Shown here: one piece after another, positions 3,101 through 45,200 of the stretch
How the letters are laid out: each line of letters starts with the position of its first letter
How positions within the stretch are numbered: position 1 is the stretch's first letter
Assembly: GCF_000417505.1 (NCBI RefSeq)
Contig: NZ_APHY01000003.1
Location: 1-56,388 of the forward strand
Reading direction: 5' to 3'
Source: Megasphaera sp. NM10
GTDB lineage: Bacteria; Bacillota; Negativicutes; Veillonellales; Megasphaeraceae
Length of the DNA stretch: 56,388 nt
Made by a program: the position numbers and the translations under genes
Notes under the pieces: generated by a model
The model's database searches: none
Told to the model about the DNA's origin: nothing
The model's input: only the letters and a program-made list of their open reading frames with translations

Positions 3101-4743
3101 GACGACATGACCGTCTTTTCGCGGACACCGTCGATAGCCGGGTTGGTGACTTGGGCGAAATTTTCCTTGAAGTAATCGTAGAGGAGCTGAGGTTTGTCGT
3201 TGAGGACGGCCAGGGGGACGTCGACGCCCATGGAGTCGATGGCGTGCTGGGCATCGCGGGCCATGGGCAGGATGACCTTGTCCATATCTTCCTGGGTATA
3301 GCCGAAGACTTTTTCCTGTTCCTTCAGGTCATAAGGGATGATGGCATCGCTGTTGGCGATGTTCTGACCCGTCATGAGGTCGTCGAGGTTGACGATGTGT
3401 TCTTTATACCATTCGTCGTAAGGGTGTTCCGTCGCGATTTCGTGCTTGATTTCGTCGTCGTCGATGATGCGCTGTTTCTGCGTATCGACGAGGAGCATCT
3501 TGCCCGGTTCCAGGCGGCCCTTGTAGAGGACGTCTTCCGGCGGGATGTTGACGACGCCGACTTCAGAACTTACGATGACCCGGTCGTCGCGGGTGACATA
3601 GTAACGGGCCGGACGCAGGCCGTTGCGGTCGAGCATGCCGCCGATGACCGTGCCGTCGCAGAAGCCGATGGCAGCCGGGCCGTCCCACGGTTCGAGCATG
3701 AAGTTGTGATAGCGGTAGAAATCGCGCTTTTCGTCGCTCATGAGCGGATCCCGTTCCCACGGTTCCGGAATCATCATCATCATGGCATGGGGCAGGGAAT
3801 GGCCTGTCATGTACAGGTATTCCAGGCAGTTGTCGAACATGGACGAGTCGCTGCCCGTATCGTCGACGACGGGGAAGACTTTTTCCATGTCCGGGAAGAA
3901 GTCCGATTTCGATTTGCCTTCACGGGCGTTGAGCCAGTTGATGTTGCCCTGGATGGTGTTGATTTCCCCGTTGTGGACGATGTAACGGTTCGGATGGGCC
4001 CGGGCCCAGCTGGGGAAGGTATTGGTACTGAAACGGGAATGGATGAGGGCCATGGACGTGACGAAATCCAGGTCCGACAGGTCGAGGAAGAAGTGGCGCA
4101 GCTGCATGGACGTCAGCATGCCTTTATAGACGATGGTCTTCGATGACAGGCTGGCGATGTAGAAGTCCGTGCCGTTTTTCTGGCTTTCCGGGACGATGGC
4201 TTTTTCTGCCAGCTTGCGGATGATGTATAATTTCCGTTCAAAGTCCATCTGGGTCTTCATGGTCGGGTCCTTGCGGATGAAGACCTGCAGGAAATGAGGA
4301 CACGTCTGTTTGGCAATGTTGCCGATCAGGCTTTCATCGACAGGGACATCGCGCCAGCCGAGGATGGACAGGCCTTCGGAGCGGACGATGTCTTCAAAGG
4401 CTTCCATCTGTTTATGACGGAATGTTTCATAACGATGGGCAAAAATCATGCCGACGCCGTATTCACCTTCGTCAGGAAGGGAAAAGCCCAGGACTTCACA
4501 TTCGCGCTTGAAGAACTGGTGTGGAATCTGGACCAGGATGCCGGCGCCGTCGCCACTGTTGGCGTCAGCCCCTTCGGCACCGCGGTGACGGAGGTTTTCC
4601 AGGATCGTCAGGGCATCGTCGATGATGCCGTATGATTTTTTCCCCTTTATATTGGCAACGATACCGATGCCGCAGGCATCGTGTTCATAAGACGGATCGT
4701 ACAGGCCTTGCGGGCGCGGCAGATCGCGCATTTCTTTATTCAT
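181..4743 (-). CDS. gltB: Glutamate synthase, large (alpha) subunit
   Basis: Catalyses reductive transfer of the glutamine amide to 2-oxoglutarate, giving two glutamates; cytoplasmic iron-sulfur flavoprotein. 1520 aa, a full-length GltB. In order: a short propeptide, Cys24 in HDACGIG (the N-terminal nucleophile of the class II glutaminase domain after processing), a central domain, the FMN-binding synthase domain, the 3Fe-4S cysteine motif C-x5-C-x4-C in CHMLRVCHLNTC near residue 1125, and a C-terminal GXGXG beta-helix. The ATG at 4743 is chosen because AAAGGGGG lies just upstream and the protein then begins like known GltB; the frame stays open to 5019 but that extension is leader sequence. 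No gltD follows: an IS200/IS605 end abuts the stop codon. Confidence 0.95.
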   Translation of the reverse strand: MNKEMRDLPRPQGLYDPSYEHDACGIGIVANIKGKKSYGIIDDALTILENLRHRGAEGADANSGDGAGILVQIPHQFFKRECEVLGFSLPDEGEYGVGMIFAHRYETFRHKQMEAFEDIVRSEGLSILGWRDVPVDESLIGNIAKQTCPHFLQVFIRKDPTMKTQMDFERKLYIIRKLAEKAIVPESQKNGTDFYIASLSSKTIVYKGMLTSMQLRHFFLDLSDLDFVTSMALIHSRFSTNTFPSWARAHPNRYIVHNGEINTIQGNINWLNAREGKSKSDFFPDMEKVFPVVDDTGSDSSMFDNCLEYLYMTGHSLPHAMMMMIPEPWERDPLMSDEKRDFYRYHNFMLEPWDGPAAIGFCDGTVIGGMLDRNGLRPARYYVTRDDRVIVSSEVGVVNIPPEDVLYKGRLEPGKMLLVDTQKQRIIDDDEIKHEIATEHPYDEWYKEHIVNLDDLMTGQNIANSDAIIPYDLKEQEKVFGYTQEDMDKVILPMARDAQHAIDSMGVDVPLAVLNDKPQLLYDYFKENFAQVTNPAIDGVREKTVMSSAVMAGNVANIMEPNEASTAALYLKGPILTNEQMSVIKSLMTPKLRAATLSMLYPVNSGSEGMETAIESLCIDALKAIKNGANILVLSDRGVNSRMAAIPALLASAALHHYLIDKGVRSDVGLILESGEPREVHHFCTLIGYGITAINPYIALESIKELIANKKLQKIDYETAKQNYIDAAVKGILAVMSKMGISTVHSYHGAQIFEAVGIKQDLIDKYFCNTPSRIEGLGIAEIAKENVLRHQEAYSTGDKLERGDFYQYHKGGQPHIIDPETVQLLQKAVQTGDYATYKKYADHVNRQTIFRLRDLLDFEYPAGSSIPIEEVEPVDSIVKRFRTGAMSYGALSKEAHECVATAMNRLGGMSNTGEGGEDSARFDTETNDRIKQVASARFGVTSDYLIHADELQIKCSQGAKPGEGGHLPGNKVYPDIAKTRHATTGVALISPPPHHDIYSIEDLAELIFDLKNANRKATIGVKLTSGAGIGTIAAGVVKAKADDIVVSGYDGGTGASPRTSLRHAGLPWEIGLSEVQQTLLLNRLRDRVTLEVDGKLLTGRDVAIAALFGAEVFGFGTAPLLAIGCHMLRVCHLNTCPYGVCTQDEKLRKRFKGKPEYIINFMRFVAQDLREIMARLGFHTIDEMVGRYDCLKQRDHFGNWKAKTVNLKNLLYRPYTDASVGQHFTTPQNHKINTTLDMSKLIRMCRPALEEQKHIRARLRIKNTDRVTGTILGSKITKRYGEKGLAEDTIILSFVGSAGQSFGAFIPCGLTLTLEGDANDYLGKGLSGGKIIVSPPRESVFPAEDNIIIGNVAFYGATSGEAYINGTAGERFCVRNSGISAVVEGVGNHGCEYMTGGRVLILGQTGRNFAAGMSGGIAYVYDLDPNKCNTDLVKLEPLTDDDEKAAVKAMLEKHVHYTDSNLGHILLENWDDTVTHLTKVIPEAYEEMVALIAQAEAEGHTDQEAHMIAFEKKHGKNGKN

Positions 4744-14264: not shown

Positions 14265-15026
14265 ATGATTGAATCGATTGACCGGGCCCTGGCCGTTTTA
14301 CAGCTTTTTTTAAAGGAAGAAAGGCCCCTCAGTGTGACCCGTATCAGCAAGCTGATGGACCTTCATAAGAGTACTGTCAGCCGCACTATGGATACGCTGG
14401 AGCGCCGCGGCTTTGTCCAGAAAGACAGTGAAACAGGGAAATACTGGCTGGGGCTCCAGGTCTATGCCCTGGGGATGCTCTTCCGGGAAAAGGATGCCTT
14501 CCCTAAAGTCGCCTATCCGTATGCCAAGGCCCTGTCCCTGCAGTGCAATGAAGGGGTCCATATTACGACCTTTGCCCATAATGGGGCTTCCTATCCGCAG
14601 CACATCATTTTAGAGAAGATCAAGTCGCCCAGGACGATTGATACGGCACCGCCTATCGGTGCCGTCCGTCCGGCGTATTGCTCGGCCTCGGGCAAGTGCC
14701 TCTTGGCTTTTTCGCCGGAATACCTGCACACTTATACGGGCTGCACGCTGCAGAAGTTTACGGAATATACCATGACCGACTGGAGCGACCTGCTCCAGGA
14801 ACTGGAGAAGATCCGCTGCCGGGGTTACGCCGTGGAACGGGAAGAAGTCGAACTCGGCATGGCCTGCATTGCTGCGCCGATTTTCCATCATGGAATCATT
14901 ACGGCGGCTATCAGCGTATCCGGACCGGCAGACCGGCTAACGGCGGAAGAACGGGACCTGGCCATCGAAGCTGTCAAAAAGACGGCGGCCGACATTAGCC
15001 GGGCTTTAGATTCAAAGGAAATGTAA
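14265..15026 (+). CDS. IclR family transcriptional regulator
   Basis: 253 aa, usual length. Residues 1-65 form the winged helix-turn-helix (SIDRALAVLQLF, then LSVTRISKLMDLHKSTVSRT as recognition region), and residues ~75-250 the GAF-like effector domain with GAVRPAYCSASGKCLLAF and the late RGYAVEREEVELGMACIAAP stretch typical of IclR. These proteins sense small organic acids or aromatics and usually control a neighbouring catabolic operon. Here the next gene is a radical SAM enzyme with its own promoter; no obvious catabolic operon adjoins, so the target is unclear. The ATG sits directly after GGGGGAACGAGG. Confidence 0.9.
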   Translation: MIESIDRALAVLQLFLKEERPLSVTRISKLMDLHKSTVSRTMDTLERRGFVQKDSETGKYWLGLQVYALGMLFREKDAFPKVAYPYAKALSLQCNEGVHITTFAHNGASYPQHIILEKIKSPRTIDTAPPIGAVRPAYCSASGKCLLAFSPEYLHTYTGCTLQKFTEYTMTDWSDLLQELEKIRCRGYAVEREEVELGMACIAAPIFHHGIITAAISVSGPADRLTAEERDLAIEAVKKTAADISRALDSKEM

Positions 15027-37872: not shown

Positions 37873-38238
37873 TCACTTTTCGTCCATGATGGCGATAGGT
37901 CCTCGTTCGCCTGTCCGGATGCGGACGGCATCGTTCAGGCGGTAGATGAAGATCTTGCCGTCGCCCGGTTTGCCTGTCTTGCAGACTTTCTGGGCGACTT
38001 CGACGACTTTGTCGACCGGCACTTCACAGACGACCGTTTCGACTTTAATGCCTGGCAGGAGGTTGATGTTGTACCGCTGGCCGCGGTAGACTTCGACGTA
38101 GCCTTTCTGGAGGCCGCAGCCGAAGACCTGGCTGACAGTCATGCCCATGACACCGATGTTGTTCAGGGCTTCTTTGAGCTCTTCCAATTTACTCGGACGA
38201 GTGATGATTTCTACTTTTGTAATCGGATGTTCTTCCAT
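37873..38238 (-). CDS. glnB: Nitrogen regulatory protein PII
   Basis: 121 aa from the ATG at 38238 (AGAGGTGA upstream). PII signal protein that reads 2-oxoglutarate and ATP/ADP and, next to amtB, blocks the ammonium channel. T-loop GCGLQKGYVEVYRGQRYNIN keeps the Tyr that is uridylylated in proteobacteria (RGQRY), and the C-terminal GKPGDGKIFIYRLNDAVRIR is the PII signature. Starts 11 bases after amtB, so it belongs to the GlnK class by context. Confidence 0.93.
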   Translation of the reverse strand: MEEHPITKVEIITRPSKLEELKEALNNIGVMGMTVSQVFGCGLQKGYVEVYRGQRYNINLLPGIKVETVVCEVPVDKVVEVAQKVCKTGKPGDGKIFIYRLNDAVRIRTGERGPIAIMDEK

Positions 38239-38249
38239 TCGTATCACCT

Positions 38250-39659
38250 CTATAAGTTACGACCGTTAATGCCTGCGTTGTTGACGGCGGCATTGTCCAA
38301 GGATGCATTGCCGAGCGGCGTCGCCGGCGTTTCGCCGAAGGGGCTGCCGGACATGATAGCATAATTATAACCCCGTTCGCCGTGTTCGCCAATGTCCAGG
38401 CCTGTGATTTCTTCATTCTTATCGGTGCGGACCGTCATGAAGAGGCTGATGATCTTGAAGATGATGAACGTGCCGACAATGGCCAGGGCGTAAGCGACGA
38501 CAGTGGAAATAATCTGAGCGACGAGCAGATCCGAGCTGCCGTAGAAGAGGCCGTCAGCCCCGGCCGGGTTGACTTCCGTCGTAGCCCAGAGGCCGGTGGC
38601 GATGGAGCCCCATGTACCGCCGATACCGTGGATACCGAAGGCGTCGAGGGAATCGTCGTAACCGAGTTTGGCTTTGACGACGGCGACGGCGAAGTAGCAG
38701 ATGACACCGCCGACAGCGCCGATAATCAAGGCCGGCAGGGGAGCGACGAAGCCGGCTGCCGGTGTGATGGCAACCAGGCCGGCGATGCAGCCCGAAGCGG
38801 CACCGAGGATGGTCGGTTTACCCTGGACAATCCATTCGACAGCGACCCAGGTGACCGTAGCGGCAGCGGCAGCGGCCTGAGAAGCGATGAACGCGCTGGC
38901 AGCCAGTGCGTTGGCGCCGAGAGCACTGCCGGCGTTGAAACCGAACCAGCCGAACCAGAGGAGGGCTGCGCCGAGGACGGTCATAGGCAGGTTATGCGGA
39001 ACCATGGGGATTTTCCCATAGCCATAGCGTTTGCCCAGGAGGACGCAGAGGGTCAGGCCCGAAACACCGGAGAGGATGTGGATGACCAGGCCGCCGGCGA
39101 AGTCGAGGGCACCGAGTTTAGCCAGGAAGCCGCCGCCCCAGACCCAGTGTGCCATGGGGTTGTAGATGAAGATAGCCCAGAGCAGGATGAAGACGACGAA
39201 AGCGTGGAACTTCATGCGTTCGGCGAAAGCGCCGGTAATCAGGGCCGGTGTGATGACGGCGAACATGCACTGGAAGGCGACGAAAGCCATTTCCGGAATC
39301 GTCCCGTTTTCCAGGACAGCCATGCCGACGCCGGTAAGACCGACTTTATCAAGAGAACCGATGAAACCATTAATATCCGTACCGAAAGTCATGGCATAGC
39401 CGATGAGGATCCATTCTACGGAAATCATGGCGACGATGAAGAAGCTCTGCATAATCGTCGTCAAGACGTTCTTGTTGCGGACCATGCCGCCGTAGAAGAA
39501 GCCAAGGCCCGGTGTCATGATGAATACCAGGGCTGCGCTGATGAGGACCCAGGCCGTATCGCCTGTATCGATCGTCCCCGGATCGGAAGCGAAGGCTGCC
39601 GGCGCTGCCATGAGCAGACACGGGAGCAGCACTCCTAAACGTGACCATAATTTTTTCAT
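38250..39659 (-). CDS. amtB: Ammonium transporter
   Basis: 469 aa from the ATG at 39659 (AGGAGGTTGGG upstream). Residues 1-~25 are a signal peptide, followed by eleven predicted membrane helices. Conserved elements: TGDTAWVLISAALVFIMTPG, FFYGGMVRNKN, the two pore histidines in GGLVIHILSG and FGIHGIGGTWG, and the charged C-terminal tail with TGLDIGEHGERGY that binds PII. Conducts ammonium across the inner membrane. Cotranscribed with glnB; its leader contains a terminator and an alternative hairpin. Confidence 0.95.
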   Translation of the reverse strand: MKKLWSRLGVLLPCLLMAAPAAFASDPGTIDTGDTAWVLISAALVFIMTPGLGFFYGGMVRNKNVLTTIMQSFFIVAMISVEWILIGYAMTFGTDINGFIGSLDKVGLTGVGMAVLENGTIPEMAFVAFQCMFAVITPALITGAFAERMKFHAFVVFILLWAIFIYNPMAHWVWGGGFLAKLGALDFAGGLVIHILSGVSGLTLCVLLGKRYGYGKIPMVPHNLPMTVLGAALLWFGWFGFNAGSALGANALAASAFIASQAAAAAATVTWVAVEWIVQGKPTILGAASGCIAGLVAITPAAGFVAPLPALIIGAVGGVICYFAVAVVKAKLGYDDSLDAFGIHGIGGTWGSIATGLWATTEVNPAGADGLFYGSSDLLVAQIISTVVAYALAIVGTFIIFKIISLFMTVRTDKNEEITGLDIGEHGERGYNYAIMSGSPFGETPATPLGNASLDNAAVNNAGINGRNL

Positions 39660-39830
39660 AATTCCCAACCTCCTGACAAATAAAAAAGATGCCTTTCCTG
39701 ATGGAACCATCGGGGAAAAGACATCATTGTCTACTGTCATATTTTATTATCGCCAGAATATACGAAAAGCCTGGAAAGATAGTTTATGCTCTCTCTTTCC
39801 AGGCTCCTTTGCCGCTGCTATTCTGTTGAT
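39660..39830 (-). promoter_or_regulatory. Long regulatory leader of amtB-glnB with competing hairpins
   Basis: About 170 bases between promoter and gene. Read on the minus strand: a 12-bp hairpin AGCCTGGAAAGA / TCTTTCCAGGCT (39768-39805), then a terminator (39682-39725). TCTTTCC of the first hairpin could pair with GGAAAG of the terminator, and GGAAAGA with TCTTTTCC, giving mutually exclusive folds. This looks like a termination/antitermination switch. The ligand or protein is unknown; an ANTAR-type antiterminator is one possibility. Confidence 0.6.
39682..39725 (-). terminator. Intrinsic terminator inside the amtB leader
   Basis: Minus strand GATGTCTTTTCC / GGAAAGGCATC with one mismatch, 15-base loop, followed by six T. 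It lies upstream of the amtB ribosome site, so it can only act as an attenuator. Confidence 0.8.
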
Positions 39831-39836
39831 GAAATC

Positions 39837-39865
39837 ATTATATAAGTAAAAACGCGTCATGTCAA
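39837..39865 (-). promoter_or_regulatory. Promoter of amtB-glnB
   Basis: Perfect TTGACA (39860-39865) and TATAAT (39837-39842), 17-bp gap, on the minus strand. A consensus sigma-A promoter suggests that control lies mainly after initiation, at the leader. Confidence 0.85.
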
Positions 39866-39941
39866 TAACTTTTTTTGAAATTCTTTTAATAAAAGTTGGG
39901 ATATATTGATTTTAGTAACGAACAGATAAAAAGTATATCAT

Positions 39942-40916
39942 TCAGACGAAAAGAATGTGCCCCAGGAAAATATAGAAAGTCAGGGATACGGCGCTCAGGG
40001 CCGTCGTGTTCATGACGACCTGCGTGGTGTAATCGGGGTTGTTGTCGAACTCGATGGCAAACAGGGCCGTATTGACGGCCGTCGGGATGGCACAGTAGAT
40101 GAGGAAGACCGTGGCACTGACGGCTGTGAACGTGCCGGGCCGGAAGGCATTGGCCAGGTAGATCATGGCCAGGCCGATGAGGGGCAGGACCGTCATCTTG
40201 AGGATGCTGACAATCCAGACGTCCTTGTCGAGCCATTGGATCTTCGTCTGCGACAACTGGGCACCGATGCTGACCATGGCCAGGGGCAGGAGGGCCTTGC
40301 TGGCCATATCCATGATAGGCCACAGGAAGAAGTCCTTGGCGTCCCAGCCGACGTAGCGGGCGATGAGGGCCGCAGCCAGGACATAGAGCAGGGGCATGTG
40401 GAACATAACAGATAGCGTATCCCTGGCCGTCAGGCGGCCCCGGCCGGCCTGATAGAGGCCGAGCGTGTTGAGGGAGATGCTCTGGATCATGAAGATGATG
40501 ATCTGTACAACCATAGCTTCGGCCAGATACGGCGTCTGGCCGTTGACGACGAAGGGGTCGTGGGAAAAGACGAGGATGATCAGGGCGACGCCGAGATTTC
40601 CCGTGTTGTTGAACATGAAGGCATTGCGGCACGATTCCAGCATGGCTGCATCGTAGTGGCGGATACGGCCGACGATGTTGGCGATGACGAAGCAGATGAC
40701 CATGAAGATGGCGATGGCCGCGATGATGTTGATGCTCGTCGCCGGGAATTGCGTCGTATAGATATTGGTAAAGATGAAACTGGGGATGACCAGGAAAAAC
40801 ATGAGCTTCGATAAGGTCTTTACGTCGAGGTGGAATTTCTTATCGAGGAAATAACCGAGGACGACGAGAAAGAAAATGGGAAGCATCGTGTGTTCGATGA
40901 TGAACCAGAATACCAT
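39942..40916 (-). CDS. AEC family transporter (auxin efflux carrier / malate permease type)
   Basis: 324 aa from the ATG at 40916 (AAAGGAG 11 bases upstream). About ten membrane helices in two similar halves, with the AEC-type FFLVIPSFIFTNIY and FMFNNTGNLGVALI segments, the latter the discontinuous-helix Asn-Asn region. Bacterial members export or take up organic acids such as malate, lactate or oxalate; the substrate here is unknown. It has its own promoter and an unusual inverted repeat spanning the leader. The next gene downstream on this strand is amtB, with a separate promoter. Confidence 0.85.
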   Translation of the reverse strand: MVFWFIIEHTMLPIFFLVVLGYFLDKKFHLDVKTLSKLMFFLVIPSFIFTNIYTTQFPATSINIIAAIAIFMVICFVIANIVGRIRHYDAAMLESCRNAFMFNNTGNLGVALIILVFSHDPFVVNGQTPYLAEAMVVQIIIFMIQSISLNTLGLYQAGRGRLTARDTLSVMFHMPLLYVLAAALIARYVGWDAKDFFLWPIMDMASKALLPLAMVSIGAQLSQTKIQWLDKDVWIVSILKMTVLPLIGLAMIYLANAFRPGTFTAVSATVFLIYCAIPTAVNTALFAIEFDNNPDYTTQVVMNTTALSAVSLTFYIFLGHILFV

Positions 40917-40953
40917 GAGGGGTATCACTCCTTTTTCAAGATGGATACCCCTC
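40917..40953 (-). promoter_or_regulatory. 10-bp inverted repeat enclosing the AEC-gene ribosome site
   Basis: Arms GAGGGGTATC (40944-40953 read on the minus strand) and GATACCCCTC (40917-40926), 17 bases apart. The first arm touches the -10 box and the second ends at the start codon. Either a DNA operator over the transcription start or an RNA hairpin with the AAAGGAG in its loop. Confidence 0.6.
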
Positions 40954-40981
40954 ATTATACGCTCAATATGGAATTAGACAA
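40954..40981 (-). promoter_or_regulatory. Promoter of the AEC transporter gene
   Basis: TTGTCT (40976-40981) and TATAAT (40954-40959), 16-bp gap, minus strand. Confidence 0.6.
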
Positions 40982-40990
40982 CTGGGAAGC

Positions 40991-42184
40991 TCAGGCATAA
41001 CTTTCAAAGTAATAGACGATGGTGAGCATCGTTTCGCACATGTACTTCAAGGCGTTGCTGTCCCAATGGAATTCCGGTGAATGGCCGATGACCGGTGCGT
41101 CGCTGTAGACGCCGACGTAGTAGAACGAGCTGGGCACGGCGGCGCTGAAATAAGCGAAGTCTTCCGAGCCGGAGCCGCGCTTCAAGGGGACCAGGTCGAC
41201 GCGGTGGGAACAGTGGTCCTGGAGGATGTGGACGACCCGGTCGGTGACGCCGTCGTCATTGACGCAGACTGGCGAGAAGGGGACGACGTCCAGGTCGAAG
41301 GTGCCGCCGTAAGTGGTAGTGACATTTTTCAGGATGGCCTGAATGGCGTCGAGGATGCGTTTCCGCTTTTCTTCGTTATATGTCCGCAGGGTCCCTTTCA
41401 GTTCGGCCGTTTCCGGGATGACGTTCGGGTTGTGGCCGGCCTGGAACTGGCCGAAGGTGAGGACGACGCCGTCGCCGTCGGCATGGCAGTTGTAGACGAA
41501 GTTCTGGATGGACTGGATGATGTCGATGCCCATCTGGATGGGGCTGATGCACAGGGACGGCTGGGAGCCGTGGCCGCCGCGGCCGTGGAGGGTGATGGTG
41601 AAGTCGTCACAGGACGCCGAAATCTCACCGCGGCCGATGCCGACGTACCCCTTGGGCAGGCTGCCGGCGACGTGCAGGCCCAGGGCATAGTCGACGCGGG
41701 GGTTGTTGAGGATGCCGGCGTCGATCATGCGGGCGGCGCCGCCGTTGCCTTCTTCTGCCGGCTGGAAGGCCAGGCGGATCGTGCCGCGCAGGCAGTCTTT
41801 GTGCTTGTTGAGGATTTTGGCGACGCCCAGGAGATTGGCTGCATGGCCGTCATGGCCGCAGGCGTGCATGACGCCGTCGACGAGGGACGAATAAGGGCAG
41901 TCGAATTTTTCCGTCAGCGGCAGGGCGTCGATATCGGCCCGCAAGAGGATGACTGGACCGGGCAGGGCGCCGTGGATCAGGCCGGTGACGCCTGTGCCGG
42001 CGATGATTTTAACGTCTTCGATGCCCATGAGGGACAGTTCCTGGAATATCGTCTTGCACGTATCGAATTCTTTTTCACTCAATTCCGGATGGGCATGGAA
42101 ATATTCGCGCATTTCCATCATATAAGGTAAAGTCTTGCGCACGGCTTCGTGAATATTAAATGTCGGTGTGTATCTATCGTTCAT
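40991..42184 (-). CDS. M20 family amidohydrolase / aminoacylase
   Basis: 397 aa. Peptidase family M20D type: LRADIDALPLTE, MHACGHDGHAANLLG (metal His and catalytic Asp), FQPAEEGNGGA (Glu-Glu pair), GRGGHGSQP in the lid domain, and a late SGSEDFAYF. Such enzymes hydrolyse N-acyl amino acids, hippurate or indole-acetyl conjugates; exact substrate unknown. Starts behind AAGGAGGA. Its neighbour is an AEC transporter, a common organic-acid exporter, so a joint role in acyl-amino-acid use is possible but unproven. Confidence 0.9.
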   Translation of the reverse strand: MNDRYTPTFNIHEAVRKTLPYMMEMREYFHAHPELSEKEFDTCKTIFQELSLMGIEDVKIIAGTGVTGLIHGALPGPVILLRADIDALPLTEKFDCPYSSLVDGVMHACGHDGHAANLLGVAKILNKHKDCLRGTIRLAFQPAEEGNGGAARMIDAGILNNPRVDYALGLHVAGSLPKGYVGIGRGEISASCDDFTITLHGRGGHGSQPSLCISPIQMGIDIIQSIQNFVYNCHADGDGVVLTFGQFQAGHNPNVIPETAELKGTLRTYNEEKRKRILDAIQAILKNVTTTYGGTFDLDVVPFSPVCVNDDGVTDRVVHILQDHCSHRVDLVPLKRGSGSEDFAYFSAAVPSSFYYVGVYSDAPVIGHSPEFHWDSNALKYMCETMLTIVYYFESYA

Positions 42185-42251
42185 AGGTCAGTCCTCCTTC
42201 ATTGAGCCCGATGCATTTTCTATATATGTATATATTATTCTATAATAAAAC

Positions 42252-42284
42252 AAAAAATCCTGCCACCAGGGCAGGACTTTTTTT
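42252..42284 (-). terminator. Bidirectional terminator after the RND gene
   Basis: TCCTGCC / GGCAGGA stem with six A on one side and seven T on the other. It overlaps the RND stop codon and can serve either strand. Confidence 0.8.
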
Positions 42285-45200
42285 AGGCACTCTTTCGTCG
42301 GAACAGGCTGTGCTTTTCCATGAAGACGAAAAGAATCGGGATAATGACCAGTGTGAAGACTGTCGATGTCAGCAGGCCGCCGATGACGACGACGGCCATA
42401 CTGGCCCGCGTTTCCGCCCCGGCCGTCATGGACAGGGCCGTAGGCAGCATGCCGACGACCATGGTCAGGGTGGTCATGAAGATAGGACGCAGCCGGACGC
42501 GGCCGGCCTGGATGACGGCGCTGCGCGGGTCCAGGCCCTGTTCGTGCATGAGGGTCAGCGTATAGTCCAGGAGGAGCGTCCCATTCTTGGCGACCAGGCC
42601 ATCCATGACCAGGATGCCGATAAGGGAATAGAGGTTCAGCGTATTATTGGTCAAGAAGAGCAGGAACAGGGAGCCGATGAGGCCCAGGGGCAGCGAGAAC
42701 ATGCGGATGAATGGCGTCTTGACCGATTCATAGAGGATGGCCAGGATCATGAATATCAGGATGAGCGACAGGAGCAGGGCTTCGCCCAAGTCCGTGAAGG
42801 TCGTCGTCATCTGGTCGGCCTGGCCGGTGAAGCGGAAAGTCATGCCGTGCAGGTCCATGGCGTTCAGGTGATTCGCCACGTCCTGGATGACCTCGTTCAG
42901 CGGCCGTCCCTGAGGCGAGCCGCCGAGGGTGATGCTCCGTTCCTTGTCGGTCCGGCGGATCGTCACCGGTCCTGTCCCGGCCTGGACCTTGGCTACGTCG
43001 GCGATGTAAATGATGTGGCCGTTGGCGTTGAGGGGAATCGTTTCCAAGTCGGACAGGCGGAAGGCGTCGGCCCCTTTGAGGCGGACGTAGATATCCGTGT
43101 CGTTGTTGTCGTTTTTGGCGTCATTGGCCAGGACGCCGGCTTTCTGGCCGCTGATGGCATTGGAAAAGGTGTCGTTCAGATCGCTCAGGGACGTGCCGTA
43201 TTGTTTCAGCTTATTACGGTCGACGACGAGCTGGTATTCGGGCATGCCGTCCTGGTAGGAGCTGCTGATGTCGCGCAGGCCGGCGATGTCGGTCTTCATC
43301 ATCTGTTCGATAGCCCGTGACTGGGCCAGCAGGGCCTCGCTGTCCTTGCCGCGCAGTTCCAGGCGAAGGTTGCCTGAACCGCCGCCGAAGCCGCCTGTCG
43401 TCCCGGATACGGAAGCCTGGGCTTCTTTGACCCGGACGTCGCCGTCATAGATGTGGTCCGCAGCAAAGCGGCGCACGTCGTTGGTGACTTGCCATATCGT
43501 CCGCGACCGGTCGCGCCGGTCTTTCAGCGTTACCTGGATATTGGCCTGGTTCAGGCTCTTGCCGCCGATCATCGACGTATAGTACGTGACTTCCGGGACC
43601 GTCTTCAAGTAATCTTCGAGCTGGCGCGCTACTTTATCCGTCCGCGTCAGATTGGCATTGGTCGGCAGTTCGACGGTGATGCGGAAACTGCTTTCGTCAG
43701 TCTGGGGCATGAATTCCGAACCGACCAGGCCCGTCGGGATCAGGGCCGCTGCGGCGATAAACAGGACCAGGACGGGGATGACCAGCTTTTTGGCGTGATC
43801 CAGGCTCCAGGTCAGGATAGACGTATAGTGGTTGCGGGCGCTTTCTTCGATGGCGTCCATTTTATGCCAAATCGGTTTGTCCGGGATTTTCAGGCCCAGG
43901 CGGAACAGGCGCGATGCCAGCATCGGCGTCAGCGTAAAGGAAACGAAGAGGGAAAAGAGTGTGGCAAAGACGATGGTCAGGCCGAACTGTTTGAAATACT
44001 GGCCGACCATGCCCGTCATGAAGGCAATAGGCAGGAAAACGACGACATCGCAGAGGGTGATGGCGACAGCAGCCATGCCAATTTCCGACCGGCCGTGAAG
44101 GGCTGCTGATTTTGGTGCTTCGCCCTGCATGAGGTGGCGGTGGATGTTTTCCAATACGACAATCGAGTCGTCGACGAGGATGCCGATGCACAGGGCCATG
44201 CCCATGAGGGACATCATGTTAAAGGTGAAGCCGGCCAGGTACATGGCAAAAAAAGTAGAAATCAGGGATGTCGGAATGGCAATCATGACGGCCAGCGTCG
44301 ATCGCCAGCCCCGGAGGAAGAAGAACAGGACCAGCCCTGTCGTGCACAGGCCTTCGATGAGGGTCTGCAGGGTATTGTGCAGGGAATTGCGGATATACGA
44401 AGCCGATTCATTGGTAATGGTAAAGGTATAGTCCGGATTGTCCTGGCGCAGTTCGTCCAGCTTTTTGGTCACATTGTCGACCGTGTTGACGACGTTGGCG
44501 TCGCTGTTCTTGTAAATGGCCATGACGACAGCATCGTCGCCGTTGACACGGGCATAATGCGTGACTCGCTGGTCCTGGCGCTTGATGGAGGCGACCGCCG
44601 TAATGGGAATCTTGGCACCCTTGGCATTGGTGACCTGGATTTGGGACAGTTCGCTTTCATCGGCGTACTGGGCTTTGACGCGGACGTCCGTCGTCGTGCC
44701 TGACGAATAAATCGTCCCCGACGGCATGAGGACGTTTTCCGCTTTCAAGGCTTTGACGACTTCTGCCAGGGTCATATCGTAGTGGATGAGCTTGTCCTTG
44801 TCGATTTCGACGGCGATTTCCTTATCACGGCCGCCGTTGAGCTCGATTTCCGAGACGCCATCGGCCTGCTGGAGGACATCTTGGAAATCATTTTCTGTCT
44901 TGCTGTAGATATCGTCCAGGGAGTGGGAAGATTGGACGGCGACGTACATGATCGGCGTCGCGTTGACGTCGCGCTTGATGACGACTGGCTCGTCGATATC
45001 GTCAGGCAGGCTGCCGCGGATGGCATTGATTTTTTTCGTAGCGTCAATGGCTGCCGCATCGGCATTGGCCGAAAAATCAAGCTCCAGCGTAATCCGGGCC
45101 TGGCCGTACGATGCCGTCGACGTCATATGTTTTAAATTAGACACAGAAGACAGAGCGTCTTCGGCAGGCTTGACGACCTGCTGTTCGACGGAATCGGCAT

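Follow-up and report, generated by a model that had tools for sequence, protein, structure and literature searches.

Among known systems, the one nearest to the leader analyzed here is EutV/EutW of Enterococcus faecalis, in which a REC-ANTAR regulator with a histidine kinase serves several leaders, each carrying a hexaloop whose first and fourth positions are A and G and which overlaps an intrinsic terminator in the latter's 5' arm (PMC3369931, PMC8934654). Besides this terminator-overlapping hairpin, P2, antitermination by EutV requires a further hexaloop hairpin, P1, placed with a short linker upstream of P2; the linkers of the E. faecalis eut genes measure 5–12 nt, and EutV no longer antiterminates when they are lengthened (PMC3369931, PMC8934654). 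According to the 2022 EutV-RNA structure, a single hexaloop is the minimal ANTAR motif, but P1 was still needed for antitermination (PMC8934654). Furthermore, predicted ANTAR targets precede P-II, ammonium-transporter, and glutamine-synthase genes (PMC3369931), and therefore the link between ANTAR proteins and nitrogen genes is not new. ANTAR and the hexaloop are also mentioned for Streptomyces (PMC12838073).

The amtB-glnB leader of Megasphaera sp. NM10 resembles EutV/EutW leaders in its A1/G4 hexaloops, in their overlap with terminators, and in the presence of a REC-ANTAR regulator with a histidine kinase that may serve several leaders. Unlike the EutV/EutW leaders, however, it has two complete serial units before one gene, an A-rich box in place of a canonical P1 near P2, and a predicted role in nitrogen assimilation rather than ethanolamine use. 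Gene classes, loop kind, and terminator kind agree with the targets predicted in PMC3369931; those came from a dual-hairpin covariance model, whereas each unit described here has a single hexaloop. The leader appears to work like an ANTAR antiterminator in which one tested feature of the dual-hexaloop family, P1, was not found. We consider it probable that two serial ANTAR-type antitermination gates control amtB-glnB.

Among the matches listed by a literature search over titles and the beginnings of abstracts of openly available papers, none dealt with nitrogen control or ANTAR proteins in this order, and none, apart from the proposal in PMC8934654, concerned natural antiterminators with a single hexaloop. 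For NitR of Clostridium, the search gave no usable match.

Two overlapping hexaloop/terminator pairs precede amtB

The window is the whole stretch of DNA analyzed, 56,388 nucleotides of contig NZ_APHY01000003.1. The leader lies on its minus strand from about 39830 to 39660 (~170 nt) and folds at -57.6 kcal/mol (z -5.08), which none of 200 shuffles matched. A first-pass annotation, made from the letters of the window, had described a consensus promoter, a leader of about 170 bases, an upstream hairpin, a ribosome site, and the gene pair amtB-glnB; all of these were recovered, and Pfam confirms both genes (Table 1). It had called only the downstream hairpin a terminator. This holds for T2 with its U6, but hairpin 1 (T1), with UUUU at its end, is itself terminator-like. 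A simple consensus terminator scan of 38500..42500 gave five sites, with neither leader hairpin among them, probably because it permitted loops of 3–8 only.

Table 1. Features of the amtB-glnB leader and its genes in the window
Feature	Position	Strand	Basis or remark
sigma-70 promoter TTGACA-17-TATAAT	39837..39865	-	12/12 consensus
predicted transcript 5' end AUCAACAGAAUA	39819..39830	-	contains A-rich box 1; 5' strand of possible helix P0 (weak)
A-rich box 1, CAACAGAAUA	39828..39819	-	box motif
hexaloop mini-hairpin H1, GGC-AAAGGA-GCC	39802..39813, loop 39810..39805	-	hexaloop search
terminator-like hairpin T1, then UUUU (39768..39765)	39769..39804	-	5' arm overlaps H1; fold and covariation
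possible helix P0, 3' strand UAUUCUGGCGAU	39749..39760	-	fold; weak covariation
A-rich box 2, UAAUAAAAUA	39740..39749	-	motif score 7.7; 8 nt upstream of motif-scan 3-bp stem
hexaloop mini-hairpin H2, AGAC-AAUGAU-GUCU	39719..39732, loop 39728..39723	-	hexaloop search
putative intrinsic terminator T2, then U6 (39687..39682)	39688..39725	-	5' arm overlaps H2; fold and covariation
ribosome-binding site AGGAGG	39669..39674	-	sequence
amtB, ammonium transporter, start taken as ATG 39659	38250..39659	-	PF00909, E 3.5e-128
glnB, P-II protein	37873..38247	-	PF00543, E 2.4e-26

Three hexaloops with A1 and G4 were found in the leader. Two of them, H1 and H2, lie 69 nt apart, and the 3' strand of each mini-hairpin doubles as the 5' arm of T1 and T2, respectively. 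These overlaps support the control of amtB-glnB by antitermination that the first-pass annotation had suggested. The third candidate, within the 3' arm of T2, recurs in only two of the other nine genus leaders (L003, L006) and was set aside. Helix P0, which would join the transcript 5' end to the stretch after T1, is present in the fold; it was likewise set aside, as its covariation is weak (2 double-change cells, equaled by 63 of 500 shuffles).

Conservation in the genus and the order

An amtB match was found in 11 of the 15 genomes of the genus. Both hexaloops are present in all ten leaders L002–L011, and in each of these leaders both terminator overlaps satisfy one or both of two scan rules; the eleventh leader (L012) has a single unit. 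In the 20 hexaloops of the ten leaders, position 1 is A in 18 and G in 2, while A at position 2 and G at position 4 are invariant (20/20 each). In an alignment of nine leaders, built without selection by pairing and without L011 (its second unit was misaligned in an earlier alignment), the invariant columns are concentrated at the hexaloop hairpins and the transcript 5' end. In these nine orthologues, the terminators vary by double substitutions that preserve base pairing: T1 had 26 double-change cells (shuffled mean 10.3) and T2 had 11 (shuffled mean 2.8), with 0 of 500 shuffles as high in either case; the tested structure was derived from the window sequence, which somewhat favors that structure. 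Five of the seven pairs of the hexaloop hairpins are invariant. Pair counts on a further alignment, A2, are no evidence of pairing because its elements had been picked for pairing. In one of the genus leaders' genes, L008 (G001:C132, 15672-17075), the amtB match contains one in-frame TAG.

Could the two hairpins exchange strands, as the first-pass annotation had proposed from the complementarity of TCTTTCC and GGAAAG? The complementarity is there in the window sequence, but it is not conserved: duplexes between cognate T1 and T2 average -13.0 kcal/mol versus -13.23 kcal/mol for non-cognate ones, and 2742 of 5000 permutations were as strong (8 of the 10 leaders; L004 and L005, with one unit passing the rule, were dropped). 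We therefore give hardly any credence to strand exchange. The conserved feature is a predicted choice within each hairpin, between hexaloop mini-hairpin and terminator, and not a swap between hairpins.

The same annotation had offered a small-molecule RNA switch as one option. A riboswitch for glutamine, ammonium, or 2-oxoglutarate would fit a terminator-bearing leader before a nitrogen gene. However, the Rfam 15 search of the window gave no match at gathering score, and that of 39600..39960, up to E 10, gave 11 weak, unrelated matches, none near gathering score. The conserved blocks are all small, the invariant columns cluster at the hexaloops and the transcript 5' end, and in some leaders the gap between promoter and hexaloop seems, by eye, to be ~15 nt (L038), too small for an aptamer. 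Control of termination by such a riboswitch is thus highly improbable.

Across the order, amtB-like genes were found in 32 of 61 genomes. The hexaloop/terminator unit is present in 28 of the 37 fetched amt leaders compared with 11 of 740 dinucleotide shuffles, and a stricter loop rule retained 28/37 and only 5/740. Similarly, 37 of 41 glnA leaders, a set independent of the amt leaders, have a unit with A1, A2, and G4, compared with 2 of 820 shuffles; these were the 41 fetched loci, and further glnA places stood among the matches listed. When any hexaloop was allowed, the ANNG class occurred in 25 amt leaders and the runner-up class in 4. Loops of 4 and 8 were also enriched among terminator-overlapping hairpins (21/37 and 26/37, versus 31/37 for loops of 6), which may reflect their nesting with the hexaloop. 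In the any-hexaloop scan, as in the amt P1 scan and the motif search described below, L046 entered as an in-gene stretch (its match starts at 917).

The nine amt loci that gave no strict unit are L017, L018, L019, L038, L048, L050, L051, L053, and L054; the upstream region of L019 seems, by eye, to be coding, and a looser scan recovered the unit of L038. The glnA loci in which no unit was found are L213, L223, L224, and L227. The last three come from three genomes with two glnA places each and may represent the other copy. In the L213 leader a hexaloop is visible by eye, and the terminator foot is a base shorter than that of L219, a close relative; this may be a real or an assembly difference.

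Outside the order, 12 of 23 named genomes have an ANTAR protein. A unit-like scan match at amtB occurred in 4 of these 12 (L104, L105, L107, L149) versus 2 of the 11 lacking one (L132, L143), and the two groups were thus not separated; the matches of L104 and L149 are convincing by eye. Upstream of amtB in L102, a MAG titled Selenomonas ruminantium that has an ANTAR protein, two serial units are seen by eye (GGAC-AACGUU-GUCC and GGAC-AAAGGC-GUCC), which the scan perhaps missed owing to weak U-runs.

P1 and the A-rich box

Is there a P1 in these leaders? A scan found no canonical P1 in the region 2–25 nt upstream of H1 or H2 in the window. At the same distance, 3 of 35 amt units had one compared with 8.3% of shuffles, not above chance, and looser rules gave 4/35 versus 11.1% and 5/35 versus 25.2% of shuffles. 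For the glnA units, the count was 0/35 compared with 8.6% of shuffles (L218 was left out or misplaced here, as in the motif search and its cross-test). On these counts, a P1 hairpin near P2 was set aside for amt and glnA units. As a natural control, the eut cluster of the genome behind L151, Vagococcus allomyrinae (L256, minus strand, near 4706 in plus coordinates), showed one hexaloop/terminator unit, a GGC-AAUGAC-GCU hexaloop on a terminator, and no canonical P1 by scan; lack of P1 could be more widespread than assumed, or atypical P1 hairpins could escape the scan.

Could H1 itself be the P1 of a classical dual hexaloop, with H2 as P2, T1 merely folding the linker, and T2 as the sole terminator? 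Both H1 and H2 have ANTAR loops, the U-run of T1 is weak, and P0 could draw H1 and H2 together. On the other hand, the linker would span 69 nt versus 5–12 nt in the E. faecalis eut genes, where an extension of 20 nt abolishes EutV antitermination (PMC3369931, PMC8934654). Furthermore, single hexaloop/terminator units stand in the paralogous amt leaders (L012–L016), the glnA leaders, and the P-II leaders; hence, one unit seems able to work alone. We regard the stretched linker as unlikely and prefer two gates in series, against which stand the mere four U of T1 and the lack of a canonical P1 near H1 and H2.

A motif search in the 32 nt before each hexaloop (L002–L016, L036–L054, and L207–L247, with similar upstream stretches removed; 52 units) returned an A-rich box, CAANANAAUA, with a log-likelihood of 107.1 compared with 23.8–35.2 in ten shuffled sets. 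Its best match ends 3–8 nt upstream of the hexaloop stem in 37 of the 52 units, and matches are poor in some, for example, the second units of L010 and L011, L037, and L049. The box trained on amt units was recognized in glnA units (mean 6.99 vs. 1.43, sd 0.67, 0/300), and that trained on glnA units was recognized in amt units (3.86 vs. -0.53, 0/300); L019 and one L044 match, kept in the motif search, were dropped from this cross-test and from the pairing test. In four P-II leaders the box was unconvincing (11, 59, 108, and 16 of 200 shuffles equally good). By eye, the box seems to lie at the transcript start in several single-unit leaders. For H2, however, it is internal, and a promoter feature therefore does not explain it. 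Base pairing between the box and the stretch that follows the terminator was considered as the cause of its conservation and set aside as weak (cognate -6.96 versus non-cognate -6.15 kcal/mol, 21 of 2000 permutations, 49 units).

It is conceivable, as a tentative generalization that we would not yet favor, that the ANTAR antiterminator of this order has two parts, a single hexaloop for each terminator and, a few nucleotides upstream, a linear A-rich box, CAANANAAUA; the box would take the place of the recruitment hairpin P1, its reader being the ANTAR dimer that also reads the hexaloop, or else a partner. Serial units would then gate amtB doubly, and the same rule would govern a core nitrogen regulon of the order, comprising glnA, amtB-glnB, and the P-II/ABC operon. 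Leaders that seemingly lack P1 and have a conserved linear box instead are natural material for settling the role of P1, and searches built on dual hairpins could overlook such single-hexaloop leaders.

The ANTAR regulator and a putative nitrogen regulon

The first-pass annotation had named an ANTAR protein as a possible antiterminator and suggested a search of the genome. The PF03861 search found one ANTAR protein, with a REC domain (PF00072, E 6.6e-25) and an ANTAR domain (PF03861, E 9.1e-18), which together with the ANTAR-type hexaloops on both terminators supports that option well. Its gene lies on contig 33, just downstream of a 475-residue kinase frame with a HisKA_2 domain (PF07568, E 5.6e-24, in the 365-residue part scanned). 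The best match among solved structures was 1s8n (Rv1626 of Mycobacterium tuberculosis, E 2.6e-53), likewise a REC-ANTAR regulator; EutV (6wsh, 6ww6) was also matched. Rv1626 is PdtaR, which is paired with the kinase PdtaS. The residues R142, K143, K147, K149, E160, and Y164 make the RNA contacts of EutV (PMC8934654), and five of these six are identical in the regulator described here, the exception being K147, which is replaced by R. An ANTAR protein is encoded in all 61 searched genomes of the order, including 29 that gave no amtB match, and co-occurrence of ANTAR and leader is therefore uninformative within the order. The glnA gene, present in 60 of the 61, could explain why ANTAR is retained in genomes that gave no amtB match.

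One or several other RNA-binding proteins might instead recognize hexaloop and A-rich box, while the ANTAR protein acts elsewhere. Co-occurrence, which does not discriminate within or outside the order, leaves room for this, and the box is not named as an ANTAR feature in the passages on ANTAR that were examined. However, ANTAR targets share the loop rule (A1, G4) and the terminator overlap, the RNA-contact residues are retained in the regulator, and the genes targeted belong to nitrogen metabolism, as PMC3369931 reports for ANTAR. We consider another protein very unlikely and keep the ANTAR regulator as the candidate reader of the hexaloops.

By default, the 5' arms would fold into T1 and then T2, and transcription would halt inside the leader; we infer that both hairpins terminate. 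When the contig 33 pair, which resembles EutW/EutV or PdtaS/PdtaR, becomes active, the ANTAR regulator would bind and hold H1 and then H2. T1 and T2 would then be unable to form because the 3' strands of H1 and H2 are shared with the terminator 5' arms, and RNA polymerase would read through into amtB-glnB. Two gates in series would leak less than one. Binding, phosphorylation, the direction of control, and nitrogen shortage as the signal are modeled on the ANTAR family, while the sequence itself shows the promoter, the ANTAR gene, the three operons, and the conserved overlap of hexaloops with terminators.

Within this genome, the covariance model R1 marked two places, the T2 of the window and a site on contig 57. 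R1 scored 150 of 966 candidates of this genome, and the regulon is therefore a lower bound; several R1 matches were other things, namely ordinary terminators and, by eye, a 5S-rRNA-like stretch in L086. The contig 57 unit (L094/L199/L205, near 14489-14533) lies directly upstream of a P-II gene (PF00543) that heads a branched-chain-type ABC transporter operon, the transporter being named from sequence reading. On contig 28, the glnA leader has GAGUC-AAAGAA-GACUC overlapping a terminator. In this genome the layout is thus predicted from sequence for at least three operons of nitrogen metabolism: amtB-glnB, glnA, and P-II/ABC. The units before glnA and the P-II/ABC operon indicate a nitrogen-assimilation regulon, which is in line with the tie to nitrogen made in the first-pass annotation. 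Probably, amtB is switched on alongside glutamine synthetase and another nitrogen operon upon a two-component signal of nitrogen need. For Megasphaera and related bacteria, a specific nitrogen regulon is thereby proposed that experiments can test.

Units also occur in the P-II leaders L196, L200, and L202, which belong to three other genomes; one was found by scan and two by eye. No unit was found within 450 nt of the P-II genes L197 and L203 (G001, contig 79), and this pair has a weak R1 match ~1 kb upstream (E 0.16). Unit-like stretches were also seen before a fumarase/aspartase-type gene (L089, G004:C2, 247011-247059) and before an iron-type alcohol dehydrogenase-like gene (L079, G001:C153, 1695-1738), both genes being named from sequence reading; these are possible targets outside nitrogen metabolism.
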